Shown in pieces: positions 15,320-20,712 of a DNA stretch of 64,000 nucleotides. The notes below the pieces were generated by a model. It saw only the letters and a program-made list of their open reading frames with translations, had not been told where the DNA came from and did no database searches. The stretch is taken from contig JAGWTZ010000004.1 of the NCBI GenBank assembly GCA_028868695.1, positions 1 through 64,000 of the forward strand. Direction: 5' to 3'. Within the stretch, counting starts at the first letter, position 1. Every line of letters begins with the position of its first letter. Source of the DNA: Alphaproteobacteria bacterium. Its GTDB lineage: Bacteria; Pseudomonadota; Alphaproteobacteria; Rhizobiales; Aestuariivirgaceae. Made by a program: the position numbers and the translations under genes.

Positions 15320-16576
15320 ATGGGTCTGAAGAAATTTGCAGCCGGTCTTGCGTTCACTGCATCGCTCTTTGCGATGGGTGCGGCCAAGGCCACTGACATT
15401 GAAGTGACGCATTGGTGGACATCCGGTGGCGAAGCCGCTGCCGTGGCTGAATTCGCCAAGGCCGTGAACGCCTCGGGCGATCATTGGGTTGACGGCGCCA
15501 TCGCCGGCTCGGGCGACGTTGCCCGCCCGATCATCATTTCGCGTATCTTGGGCGGCAACCCGATGGGCGCCACCCAGCTGAACCCCGGCCATGACGCCGA
15601 CGAACTGATCAAGGCCGGCCTGATGCAGGACCTGACGGACGTGGCCAAGAAGGAAAACTGGGATGGCATCCTGCGTCCCAAGACCCAGCTGGCTTCCTGC
15701 ACGGTGGACGGCAAGGTCTGGTGCGTTCCTGTGAACCTGCACTCGGCCCAGTGGCTGTGGACCAACCGTCACGTCTATGAAAAGCTCGGCCTGCAGCCGC
15801 CGAAGGATTGGAACGAATTCGTCGCCGATGCGCCGAAGCTGAAGGCCGCTGGCATTCAGCCGATGGCCCTGGCCCAGGGCTGGCCGGTTGGCCTGCTGAT
15901 CCAGGACTTGATGGTGGCTGTGGCTGGCGTCGATGGCTTCGTGAAGGTGTACAAGGATCGTGACCTCGGCGTTGCCGGCGGCCCCGATTTCGCCAAGGTC
16001 TTCAAGGCCGTGGAAGACGCCCGCTCGATGGTCGATCCCAAGGACATGACCAAGCAGTGGAACGAAGCTGTGGCCCTCGTGATCACCGGCAAGGCTGGTG
16101 GCGTGGTGCACGGCGACTGGTCTGGCGGTGAATTCCAGGTGGCCAAGATGGTTCCGGGCAAGGACTATGATTGCTTGCCGGGCCTCGGCCTCACCCCTGT
16201 GCTGAACACCGGCGGTGACGTGTTCTACTTCCCGAAGAGCAAGGACCCGAAGATCACCGAAGCCCAGCTGAAGATGGCTTCCACACTGGTGAAGCCGGAC
16301 GTGCAGGTGGCCTTCAACCTGAAGAAGGGCTCGCTGCCGATGCGCGGCGACGTCGATCTGTCGGCTGCCAACGACTGCATGAAGAAGGGCTTGGAAATTC
16401 TTGACCATCCGAAGTCCAACGCCGTTTTCCCGAACGACGTGCAGATGCTGGACCGCGACTCGCTGAACCAGATCAACGACCTGATGACCCAGTTCTTCTC
16501 CACCCCGGCCATGACTGCGGCTGATGTGCAGAAGAAGTTCGTGGACATCATCAAGGCCGCTCCTCCGATGAAGTAA
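15320..16576 (+). CDS. Sugar ABC transporter substrate-binding protein
   Basis: Signal peptide plus DIEVTHWWTSGGEAAAVAEFAKAVN, typical glucose/mannose-type SBP. Confidence 0.92.
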   Translation: MGLKKFAAGLAFTASLFAMGAAKATDIEVTHWWTSGGEAAAVAEFAKAVNASGDHWVDGAIAGSGDVARPIIISRILGGNPMGATQLNPGHDADELIKAGLMQDLTDVAKKENWDGILRPKTQLASCTVDGKVWCVPVNLHSAQWLWTNRHVYEKLGLQPPKDWNEFVADAPKLKAAGIQPMALAQGWPVGLLIQDLMVAVAGVDGFVKVYKDRDLGVAGGPDFAKVFKAVEDARSMVDPKDMTKQWNEAVALVITGKAGGVVHGDWSGGEFQVAKMVPGKDYDCLPGLGLTPVLNTGGDVFYFPKSKDPKITEAQLKMASTLVKPDVQVAFNLKKGSLPMRGDVDLSAANDCMKKGLEILDHPKSNAVFPNDVQMLDRDSLNQINDLMTQFFSTPAMTAADVQKKFVDIIKAAPPMK

Positions 16577-16593
16577 GGCGAAAGCCGAACCTG

Positions 16594-16620
16594 GTCCGGC
16601 GGGCACAGCGCCCGCCGGAC
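16594..16620 (+). promoter_or_regulatory. Stable intra-operon stem-loop after the SBP gene
   Basis: GTCCGGCGGGC-acagc-GCCCGCCGGAC, 11-bp stem. Confidence 0.75.
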
Positions 16621-16636
16621 TGTTTCCTGCAAAAAG

Positions 16637-16792
16637 TCTCCATTCCAGCCGAGCCGGTCCTGTGCGTGAAGTGCAACAGGCTGGGTCAACGCGTCTTGTG
16701 CGGGCTGGAAGGGTGCGTTCCCTCACATGCCTCACCCTGGCGTGGCGGGAAGGCGCAGCTTCAGCCCATCGCGGGCTTGGCTGGAATGGAGA
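16637..16792 (+). other. Structured intercistronic element bounded by a perfect 14-bp inverted repeat
   Basis: TCTCCATTCCAGCC (16637-16650) and its exact reverse complement GGCTGGAATGGAGA (16779-16792), with smaller hairpins between. Confidence 0.6.
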
Positions 16793-16810
16793 TTGTCAAA
16801 GACAGATCAC

Positions 16811-18469
16811 ATGACCACACTTGACCTCGCCTCTGTGCCCGCGCGCGAAGGGCCGCCCCACATCCAGCAATTCACCAATCCCGTGCGTTATGGCTTTGCC
16901 GCGCTGATGGCGCTGCTGGCCTTCGCCTGCATCTACTTCGACTGGCCTTTCGCCAAGATCGGCACCTTCCAGCCAATGATGTATGCGGCAGGTGTTGTCG
17001 TCATTGCCTACGTGATCGACATTCCCTTCAAGAAACTGTGGCCGAAGCTGGCGCTGTTTGATGTGTACATCGTGGCCGTCGCCATCGCCTGGTGGGCCTG
17101 GTACACCAAGGGCAGCCCGATTGATTTCTCCGGCCCCTCCGGCGCGCTTTTCACCAATATGTGGCCCTTTGCCGGCTTGCCGGATTCAGTTCCGCTGCCG
17201 GCTGATGCCGGGTTCTTCGGCCTGATCCACTGGGTCTATCTCGAACTGTTCCAATATATCGGCTGGGTCATCCAGAACGCCTTCCAGACGCTTCTGGCGG
17301 GGATCATCATTGTCGGCGGCATATTGGGCTTCCTGGTCAGCGTGGTTGCCGCGGTTACCTTCCCGTGGTTCGCGGCCAATGGCGCCTTGCACATTCTTCA
17401 GGCAACGGCCGTGCCGGGCCTCAAGATCTCCCGCAACATGACCATCGGCCTTGCAGTGGCGCTGGGCCTTGCGCTCGTGCTGGCCTGGGGTGCTGGCACA
17501 GGCTGGGGCTTCTATGCCACCGACGCCGCTGCTGACGCCGCCTGGAAGTGGGGCAGCCTGTTCATCTATTTCTTCACCTTCGCCGCCGCCGTGTGGAACG
17601 CGCCCTATTCGAACTTCCACTCAAAGATCGCGTCGATCCCGATGATGTTCATCGTGCTGTTCGCCTTTGTGGGCAGCGCCTTCTGGACAGTGGCCTATTC
17701 CACCACCGATGCGAAGATCTATCCGGTCTTCAACTTCATCGGCCTGAAGCAGTATTACCGCCTCTTCACGGTTGATGTGTGGTCCACCGCCGTCCACAAC
17801 ATCGTGATCTTCATCCTGCTGGGCACGGCCTCGTCCTTCATCCTGGGCTTCCTGCTCGCCGTGTTCATGGACCAGAAGATCAGGCTCGAAGGCCTGTTCC
17901 GCACGATTTATCTCTATCCCTTCGCGCTGTCCTTCATCGTCACTGGCCACGTCTGGGCCTGGATATTCTCGCCCACCTATGGCCTTGAGAAGTCCATCCG
18001 CCAGTTCGGCTGGAGCAATTTCAACTTCGCCTGGATTTCCGACAATGACCTGGCGATCTATTGCGTGATCATCGCCGCCGTCTGGCAGGGCACGGGCCTG
18101 GTGATGGCCCTGATGCTGGCGGGCCTGCGCGGCGTGGACGATGAAGTCTGGAAGGCCGCCCGCGTGGACGGCATTCCCAAGTGGCGCACCTATATCCAGA
18201 TCGTCATTCCGATGATGCGCCCCGTGCTCATCACCACCTTTGTGATCGTCGCCTCCGGCAACTTCCGTGTCTATGACATCGTGGTGGCGCTGACAGATGG
18301 CGGCCCAGGCATCTCCACCTCGGTCCCTTCGCAATACGTCTACAAATATCTCTTCTCCGGCAGCATCGGCCAGGGCCTTGCGGCCTCGACTGTGATGCTG
18401 CTGATTTCGGCCATCATCCTGATCCCCTGGGTCTATGTCGAATTCGTCAAGAACAAGCAGGTACGGTAA
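16811..18469 (+). CDS. Sugar ABC transporter permease with extended N-terminal membrane domain
   Basis: C-terminal MalF/UgpA-type domain (ALMLAGLRGVDDEVWKAARVDGIPKWRTYIQIVIPMMRP EAA loop) preceded by ~270 aa of extra TM segments. Confidence 0.88.
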   Translation: MTTLDLASVPAREGPPHIQQFTNPVRYGFAALMALLAFACIYFDWPFAKIGTFQPMMYAAGVVVIAYVIDIPFKKLWPKLALFDVYIVAVAIAWWAWYTKGSPIDFSGPSGALFTNMWPFAGLPDSVPLPADAGFFGLIHWVYLELFQYIGWVIQNAFQTLLAGIIIVGGILGFLVSVVAAVTFPWFAANGALHILQATAVPGLKISRNMTIGLAVALGLALVLAWGAGTGWGFYATDAAADAAWKWGSLFIYFFTFAAAVWNAPYSNFHSKIASIPMMFIVLFAFVGSAFWTVAYSTTDAKIYPVFNFIGLKQYYRLFTVDVWSTAVHNIVIFILLGTASSFILGFLLAVFMDQKIRLEGLFRTIYLYPFALSFIVTGHVWAWIFSPTYGLEKSIRQFGWSNFNFAWISDNDLAIYCVIIAAVWQGTGLVMALMLAGLRGVDDEVWKAARVDGIPKWRTYIQIVIPMMRPVLITTFVIVASGNFRVYDIVVALTDGGPGISTSVPSQYVYKYLFSGSIGQGLAASTVMLLISAIILIPWVYVEFVKNKQVR

Positions 18470-18474
18470 ACTCC

Positions 18475-19422
18475 ATGTCCACTGAAGCACTAGACCCGCA
18501 AGGCCCCAAGCCCCGCCACTGGTATGAGTGGGAACGGATCGTGGTTTACACCTTCCTGATCCTCACTTCGGTCTACTTCCTCATGCCGCTCTATATCGTG
18601 ATCATCACCTCCTTCAAGGATCTCGATCACATCCGCGACGGCAACATATTCTGGCCGCAGTTCTCCTATGGCGAGATCACCACGACTGACCCTGCCGGCA
18701 ACACGGTGACGGCCATGGCCCATTGGTGGAGCCCATGGTACCGCGCCATGTTCGAGGTTTGCACCGGCCTTGAGTGCCGCGGCATCACACCAAACTTCCT
18801 GAACTCGGTGATCATCACCGCATGGTCGGTGCCCATTTCAATCGCCGTCGCCCTCACCACGGGCTATGCCCTGTCGAACTGGCCTTTCAAGTTCTCCGAG
18901 GCCTTCTTCACAGTGCTGATCGTGGGTTCCTTCATCCCCTTCCAGGTGATGCTCTATCCCATGGTGCTGCTCACCAAGAACATGGGCATCTATTCAACGC
19001 TCTCCTGCGTGGTCTTCGTCCATACGGTGTTCGGCCTGCCCATCCTCACGCTGCTGTTCCGCAACTATTTCGCCTCGCTGCCGGTGGAGCTGTTCAAAGC
19101 GGCGCGCGTGGATGGCGCGGGCTTCTGGCGCATCCTGTTCCAGGTGTTCCTGCCCATGGCCATCCCGATCATGACGGTGGCCGTCATCCTTCAGGTGACA
19201 GGCATCTGGAACGACTTCCTGTTCGGCGTGGTCTTCGCTGGCCTGCCCAACTATCCGATGACGGTGAAGCTCAACAACATCTTCACCTCCACCTTCGGCA
19301 TCAAGGAATATAACGTGGAAATGGCCGCCACGATGATCGCCGGCTCCGTGCCGCTGCTCATCTATTTCCTATCCGGCAAATATTTCATCCGCGGCATCGC
19401 CGCTGGCGCAGTCAAGGGGTAA
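18475..19422 (+). CDS. Carbohydrate ABC transporter permease (MalG-type)
   Basis: EAA-loop motif LPVELFKAARVDGAGFWRILFQVFLPMAIP. Confidence 0.92.
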   Translation: MSTEALDPQGPKPRHWYEWERIVVYTFLILTSVYFLMPLYIVIITSFKDLDHIRDGNIFWPQFSYGEITTTDPAGNTVTAMAHWWSPWYRAMFEVCTGLECRGITPNFLNSVIITAWSVPISIAVALTTGYALSNWPFKFSEAFFTVLIVGSFIPFQVMLYPMVLLTKNMGIYSTLSCVVFVHTVFGLPILTLLFRNYFASLPVELFKAARVDGAGFWRILFQVFLPMAIPIMTVAVILQVTGIWNDFLFGVVFAGLPNYPMTVKLNNIFTSTFGIKEYNVEMAATMIAGSVPLLIYFLSGKYFIRGIAAGAVKG

Positions 19423-19424
19423 CG

Positions 19425-20540
19425 ATGTCTACTGCAACAAAATCCAAAACGTCGAGCGTTTCGATCCAGAACATTGCGCAGTCCTATGGCGCGCTGCAGG
19501 TGCTGAAGGAGCTTTCGCTCGACATTCCCGAAGGCGAGTTCCTGGTGCTGCTGGGCCCCTCGGGCTGCGGCAAGTCCACGTTGCTGAACTGCATCGCCGG
19601 CCTCCTCGAGCCGACACAGGGCAAGATCTTCATCAAGGGCAAGAACGTCACCTGGGAAGAGCCATCAAAGCGTGGCATCGGCATGGTGTTCCAGTCCTAT
19701 GCCCTCTATCCGCAGATGACGGTGGAGCGGAACCTCTCCTTTGGCCTTCGTGTGGCTGGCATGGCCAAGGATGAAATCGAAAAGCGCGTGAAGCGCGCCT
19801 CGGAAATCCTGCAGATCGAGCCTTACCTGCAGCGCAAGCCCATGCAGCTTTCCGGCGGCCAGCGCCAGCGTGTGGCCATCGGCCGCGCCTTGGTGCGCGA
19901 TGTGGACGTGTTCCTGTTCGACGAGCCGCTTTCGAACCTCGATGCCAAGCTGCGCGCAGAGCTGCGCGTGGAAATCAAGCGCCTTCACCAGCGCCTTGGC
20001 AACACCATGATCTATGTGACGCATGACCAGATCGAGGCCATGACGCTCGCTGACCGCATCGCCGTGATGAAGGGTGGTTCCATCCAGCAGCTGGATGCGC
20101 CGCTCACCATCTATTCCAAGCCGAAGAACCGCTATGTGGCGGGCTTCATCGGCTCGCCTTCGATGAACTTCATCAAGGCCAAGATTGGCGGCACGGCCAA
20201 GTCTCCCACCGTGGAGGTCTCTGGCCAGACGCTGGACATTTCGCAATACGCCTTCATTGATGGCACGCCGGTTGGCCGCGAGGTGGAGTTTGGCGCAAGG
20301 CCGGAACACATCAACATCCTGCGCGGCGCCGCTGCCAAGGGCAAGAATGTGTTCTCCGCCACCATCGAACTGGTGGAACCCATGGGCTCGGACTCGCTGG
20401 TGTGGCTTGAGCTGGGCAGCCAGAAGGTCTCGGCCCGCGTCGAATCCTCGGAAACCTTCACGCCAGGCGAAAAGGTGGCCGTGCAGTTCCGCGTCGACCA
20501 GGCCTCGATCTTCGACCTGCAGAGCGGCGACCGGTTGTAA
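19425..20540 (+). CDS. Sugar ABC transporter ATP-binding protein (UgpC/MsmK type)
   Basis: Walker A GPSGCGKST, signature LSGGQRQR, Walker B FLFDEPLSNLD. Confidence 0.95.
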   Translation: MSTATKSKTSSVSIQNIAQSYGALQVLKELSLDIPEGEFLVLLGPSGCGKSTLLNCIAGLLEPTQGKIFIKGKNVTWEEPSKRGIGMVFQSYALYPQMTVERNLSFGLRVAGMAKDEIEKRVKRASEILQIEPYLQRKPMQLSGGQRQRVAIGRALVRDVDVFLFDEPLSNLDAKLRAELRVEIKRLHQRLGNTMIYVTHDQIEAMTLADRIAVMKGGSIQQLDAPLTIYSKPKNRYVAGFIGSPSMNFIKAKIGGTAKSPTVEVSGQTLDISQYAFIDGTPVGREVEFGARPEHINILRGAAAKGKNVFSATIELVEPMGSDSLVWLELGSQKVSARVESSETFTPGEKVAVQFRVDQASIFDLQSGDRL

Positions 20541-20567
20541 AATTTATTGGCGAGTCCAAATCTGTTT

Positions 20568-20712
20568 CGCCCTTCGCCCGTTGGGGGAAGGTGCCCGAAG
20601 GGCGGATGAGGGCCTTGCCGTACATTCAGAAAGTGAACTTCATGCTCCTTGGCATGTTGGAAGACTCTTATCCGGCCCTTCGCGCCACCTTCCCCCAATG
20701 GGGGAAGGGTGA
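20568..20712. repeat. Inverted intergenic repeat element
   Basis: Arms TTGGGGGAAGGTGcccGAAGGGCGGATGAG and CTTATCCGGCCCTTCGcgcCACCTTCCCCCAA. Confidence 0.75.

Follow-up and report, generated by a model that had tools for sequence, protein, structure and literature searches.

The analyzed window is a 64,000-nt stretch of alphaproteobacterial DNA. It contains a sugar ABC-transporter operon in the order SBP – permease 1 – permease 2 – ATPase (Table 1). Downstream of the operon lies a beta-mannosidase-like gene, and on its upstream side a LacI-type regulator is encoded divergently. The substrate-binding protein (SBP) matches Pfam SBP_bac_1 (E 1.5e-22) and the PDB entries 5xpj and 5dvf, described as "binding protein component of ABC sugar transporter" (E ~1e-64). 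The SBP stop codon ends at 16576 and the ATG of permease 1 is at 16811, so that the spacer between them (16577–16810) comprises 234 nt, and it harbors two predicted structures, a short GC-rich stem-loop (hairpin 1) and a 160-nt module closed by a long stem (module 2, 16635–16794). The 5-nt gap between the two permease genes contains no hairpin. An alternative in-frame permease start is possible at the ATG at 16727, inside module 2; the start was taken as 16811, since the permeases of several relatives align from its residue 1. The N-terminal ~260 residues of permease 1 (window 16811–17600) have no Pfam match; several genus relatives align with this part from residue 1, and the alignment with the orthologues from Rhizobium, Mesorhizobium, and Rhodobacterales starts only at about residue 263.

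Table 1. Genes and predicted RNA structures of the operon (window coordinates).
Feature	Coordinates	Strand	Remarks
SBP gene	15323–16576	+	First in operon; sugar ABC-transporter substrate-binding protein, GtsA / glucose-binding-protein relative
Hairpin 1	16593–16621	+	GC-rich stem-loop; begins ~16 nt past the SBP stop; z –5.4
Module 2, 5' arm of closing stem	16635–16655	+	21 contiguous pairs in sense RNA
Module 2, interior	16656–16773	+	118 nt; no unusual structure of its own, z –1.45
Module 2, 3' arm of closing stem	16774–16794	+	Includes GGAG at 16788–16791
Permease gene 1	16811–18469	+	552 aa; BPD_transp_1 at residues 343–539
Permease gene 2	18475–19422	+	5 nt after permease 1
ATP-binding protein gene	19425–20540	+	UgpC/MalK type

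In the predicted fold, hairpin 1 pairs positions 16593–16604 with 16610–16621. The separate 11-bp GC-rich hairpin reported by a first-pass annotation of this DNA is recovered here, 16594–16604/16610–16620 pairing with a probability of at least 0.98. For comparison with relatives, orthologous loci were fetched via the SBP, their spacers were extracted, and those of 81 relatives were scored. Within the first 75 nt of each spacer, the top-scoring hairpin has a median score of 32, versus 17 in shuffled controls, and in 59 of the 81 relatives it exceeds the 99th percentile of these controls. A GC-rich hairpin is present in nearly all relatives and usually starts ~15–25 nt past the SBP stop; the sequences of these hairpins diverge, the pairing is retained, and hairpin 1 of the window is one of the set.

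Because MAFFT misplaced the 5' arms in rows from Rhizobium, covariation was tallied in 21 sequences whose core was aligned by anchoring on the hairpin. The 21 were picked for a common TCCGGC core; anchoring and choice alike bias the alignment towards a hairpin, yet both controls, shuffling and sliding, are clear: 98.4% of the cells pair and both sides have changed at seven of nine pairs, a result matched by none of 500 shuffles and not approached by the slid versions. By this comparison, the predicted hairpin 1 is an ordinary, widely conserved feature downstream of the SBP gene, and a covarying hairpin just past the SBP stop is general in the family to which this SBP belongs, in Hyphomicrobiales as well as in Rhodobacterales genomes.

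Other SBP genes of the same genome show a similar arrangement. Hairpins with a score of at least 29, starting 6–23 nt past the stop codon, follow 11 of its 16 SBP_bac_1 genes; the remaining five fall below the cut-off, two narrowly and three clearly. Among other co-directional gaps, the same criterion selects 15 of the 91 that are at least 60 nt long and 3 of the 131 shorter than 20 nt. Gene calls for this control were made mechanically; SBP genes may be among its members, and the window's own is. At two junctions (C41, spacer 234 nt; C23, 206 nt), hairpin 1 is accompanied by a second stable stem-loop of unrelated sequence. Together with those of the relatives, these SBP junctions form a simple, testable set.

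Taken as a whole, the spacer probably is an intercistronic element that partitions expression between the SBP and permease genes, hairpin 1 serving as a 3'-end barrier and module 2 as a second stem-loop. A ribosome at the SBP stop codon would cover the mRNA up to just before hairpin 1, which most likely acts as a barrier to 3'-to-5' exonucleases after downstream cleavage or partial termination; if so, the SBP mRNA would outlive or outnumber the permease mRNA, as at malE-malF. Hairpin 1 thereby probably allows binding protein to be made in far larger amounts than transporter.

Alternatively, hairpin 1, alone or together with module 2, might be a leaky internal terminator, and the same stoichiometry would then result from termination instead of differential decay. 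This possibility is tentative and the strongest of the alternatives considered. At Clostridia SBP junctions, internal terminators poor in U residues are active (PMC9045158); in the window, TGTTTCC comes after hairpin 1, and CACTTTTCC or TTTTTT comes after some of the paralogous hairpins of the genome. However, a terminator and promoter consensus scan of 16500–16900 gave no site and no GC stem with a U tract, and most tails that follow the stems in this genome are not rich in U. Hairpin 1 is compatible with either mechanism; since it lacks a U tract, we favor protection over termination.

Module 2 differs from hairpin 1 both in its scale and in its distribution. The perfect 14-nt arms described in the first-pass annotation are present at exactly the positions given; no other exact 14-nt inverted repeat spaced by 300 or less occurs in the 64 kb. 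Over 16637–16655/16774–16792, 18 of 19 bases match, with one DNA mismatch; in the sense RNA, the arms pair over the full length listed in Table 1, uninterrupted because both DNA imperfections (16636/16793 and 16651/16778) become G-U pairs. The pairing probability is ~0.96–1.0 for 16636–16650 and ~0.6–0.76 for 16651–16655; the outermost pair, 16635/16794, has 0.71. Folding, proposed earlier as a check, yields z –7.3 for the whole spacer; module 2 alone has z –6.0 on the plus strand and –4.7 on the minus strand, with fold energies of –92.0 kcal/mol (sense) versus –75.3 (antisense). When the 234-nt spacer was dinucleotide-shuffled 400 times, arms with one mismatch reached at most 15, compared to the observed 19, and exact arms at most 14, equal to that observed.

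These values were set against 52 co-directional gaps of 100–300 nt, sampled in 464 kb of the same genome. Contiguous stems of at least 14 pairs are seen in 10 of these gaps, so the earlier statement that a chance repeat of this kind is unlikely in 64 kb was too strong. Sixteen of the 52 fold at z ≤ –4; highly structured gaps being this common in the genome, the fold z-score by itself says little about function. Most of the gaps with the strongest structure belong to dispersed palindromic families, which module 2 does not. The stability of module 2 beyond chance comes almost wholly from the closing stem, as its interior folds no better than shuffled sequence (Table 1).

Comparison of the relatives' spacers, another check proposed at first, divides the two structures: hairpin 1 is conserved and covaries, and module 2 shows no covariation. 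Most relatives lack module 2 or have something else in its place, many spacers being only 75–100 nt long, and a homologous interior was found in no relative. The spacers of G017 and G019 contain hairpin 1 and a further stem-loop, each single-copy in its genome; in an SBP tree, the window genome, G017, and G019 show no resolved grouping. In G017, the arms are CCATTCAAGCC and GGCTCGAATGT at +63/+125; the corresponding window arms are CCATTCCAGCC and GGCTGGAATGG, with the 5' arm at +64. Here 19 of 22 letters match (10/11 in the 5' arm and 9/11 in the 3' arm), which none of 2000 shuffles reaches, the next best relative having 16/22; this suggests that the arms of G017 and of module 2 are orthologous. 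The inner difference is an uncompensated broken pair (A opposite C), and hence the G017 arms give no evidence of selection for pairing. In two Mesorhizobium soli strains (L042:3683–3880 and L043:3683–3881), the spacer of ~198 nt forms very long stems (–94 kcal/mol) and may hold a palindromic repeat of rhizobial type that has inserted at this junction.

Module 2 might also be neutral, an inverted duplication that arose by chance or is decaying in a spacer that tolerates it, as its absence from most relatives and its unstructured interior would allow; we regard this as unlikely, given the 21 consecutive sense-strand pairs with no true mismatch and the arm letters matched in G017.

A mobile palindromic element was the main alternative offered in the first-pass annotation, and it fails on copy number. 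Copies of module 2 were sought by DNA searches of its own genome, genus, and order and by an arm-pattern search of its own genome. The genome search gave the spacer as a single copy; 37 genomes of the genus contain no spacer homologue, 398 genomes of the order yield only short spacer matches of 24–36 nt, at chance level, and a blastn search of plasmids gave no match. The order matches apparently lie in protein-coding genes, as judged by eye from open frames, which resemble a TRAP-type SBP and a fumarylacetoacetate-hydrolase-like protein. The arm-pattern search found 44 near-matches, an apparent excess over the reversed control; the 22 examined read as coding strings rather than repeat copies, since they lie mostly in long open frames and have no comparable inverted partner and no common flanks.

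Module 2 could still be the only copy, or the last survivor, of a MITE-like family. The prior for this is not small, since most other long palindromes found between genes in the sampled 464 kb are members of multi-copy families, and some relatives lack module 2. Nevertheless, we consider it rather improbable: besides the missing second copy, module 2 does not resemble the sampled repeat elements of the same genome; no target-site duplication is seen by eye in the window flanks, a comparison made without the empty site of a near relative; and matching arms stand at the same offset in G017, where the module is single-copy too.

A close point of reference is the palindromic (MITE-like) element at 20567–20712 of the window. 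Like module 2, it is intergenic and has long arms around a center, whereas its family is multi-copy, with dozens of matching segments, and module 2 is single-copy. This element lies between the ATPase and the GH2/beta-mannosidase-like gene; its arms are 27 nt long and 89% complementary, and 43 matching segments are found genome-wide. A second palindromic family, with ends GTCATTCCCGCGAAAGCGGGA, is represented by G000 C10:6677–6697 (in the window), C34:18268–18359, and C56:4421–4498; the pattern has 47 genome matches with at most two mismatches, against none for the reversed pattern. A third, apparently smaller, intergenic family has ends GTCATGGCCCGCTT...AAGCGGGC (L159:16168–16297 and L160:14449–14578).

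About as improbable as a mobile origin is that module 2 is a genus-restricted long-stem element conserved by sequence, acting as a dedicated processing or binding site at SBP-permease junctions together with the widespread hairpin 1. Were it so, the arms would be common to the window genome and G017 with the interior free to vary, and the layout would have arisen repeatedly at further SBP junctions of the genome, each time from a different sequence.

The first-pass annotation had likened the spacer to a cis-regulatory RNA, with a multibranch junction closed by a P1-like stem. The more general part of this proposal holds, as hairpin 1 beside module 2 covaries and is conserved, so the spacer may be described as a structured cis-acting RNA region. 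The junction itself is not supported: the interior has no unusual stability, no Rfam family matches, most relatives lack the module, and one pair is broken in G017. Among the two inner hairpins listed previously, CCTGT/ACAGG is predicted (~0.8 for four of five pairs) and AGGG/CCCT has a probability of 0.0. An Rfam search at a permissive threshold returned only sub-threshold matches, the best far below the gathering score, and over the whole window Rfam finds tRNA only. The module 2 stem ends 16 nt before the permease ATG, whose surroundings are predicted to be largely unpaired and contain no good Shine-Dalgarno sequence, which is consistent with modest permease translation; the GGAG of the 3' arm is unlikely to be a ribosome-binding site, as it is paired and stands 18–19 nt from the ATG. 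A riboswitch-like, ligand- or protein-responsive regulator of the permease genes, its arms conserved by sequence, is very improbable: the arms match in G017 at nearly the same offset while the rest of that spacer has diverged, and the stem stands close to the start codon, but the interior is no more stable than its shuffles and differs greatly in length in G017, no Rfam family matches, two genomes at most share the arms, GGAG is too distant for a sequestered ribosome-binding site, the start region is largely unpaired, and a module of –92 kcal/mol is unlikely to switch.

As judged from these sequence data, module 2 is a single-copy extra with the same ends in one relative only and with no sign of a riboswitch or a mobile element. 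Within the expression-partitioning reading, it most likely adds to this system a second stem-loop that is specific to the lineage. The usual substrate of RNase III is about two helical turns of uninterrupted duplex; the 21-bp stem has this length, and module 2 could thus be an RNase III site separating the two messages, or else a second exonuclease or attenuation barrier. It may also uncouple the permease start from SBP translation. The analysis shows the predicted structures, the conservation and covariation of hairpin 1 with its enrichment after SBP genes of this genome, and a single-copy module 2; how nucleases or termination would act here, and what module 2 might do, we infer. We are surest of the conserved hairpin 1 and least sure that module 2 has a role.

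For a few cases it is understood how a single operon yields far more binding protein than transporter. In Clostridia, stem-loops downstream of SBP genes control stoichiometry, partial termination leaving more SBP than permease mRNA (PMC9045158); in E. coli, hairpins with no U tract shield SBP mRNAs from 3'-to-5' exonucleases (PMC5927463). The window has a stable predicted stem-loop directly downstream of the SBP gene, within an ABC importer operon, and by this predicted structure hairpin 1 is an intercistronic stem-loop of the known malE-malF/Clostridia kind.

In the malE-malF case (the E. coli maltose operon; PMC5927463), as here, one or more stable stem-loops separate the permease gene from an SBP gene that comes first in the operon, the U tract is lacking, and tandem structures are possible. 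The sequence is unrelated; for the window, stabilization and decay are proposed from predicted structure, and module 2, unlike malE-malF, is one long closed stem-loop. The internal terminators downstream of SBP genes in cellulolytic Clostridia (PMC9045158) resemble hairpin 1 in being GC-rich, in having a tail low in U, and in following a 5' SBP gene. They differ in that the window host is alphaproteobacterial, its spacer has an extra 160-nt module and no U-rich tail, and termination here is conjectural. In both settings, such hairpins recur after many SBP genes of one genome. Module 2, with its long stem, at most elaborates on this SBP-downstream hairpin.
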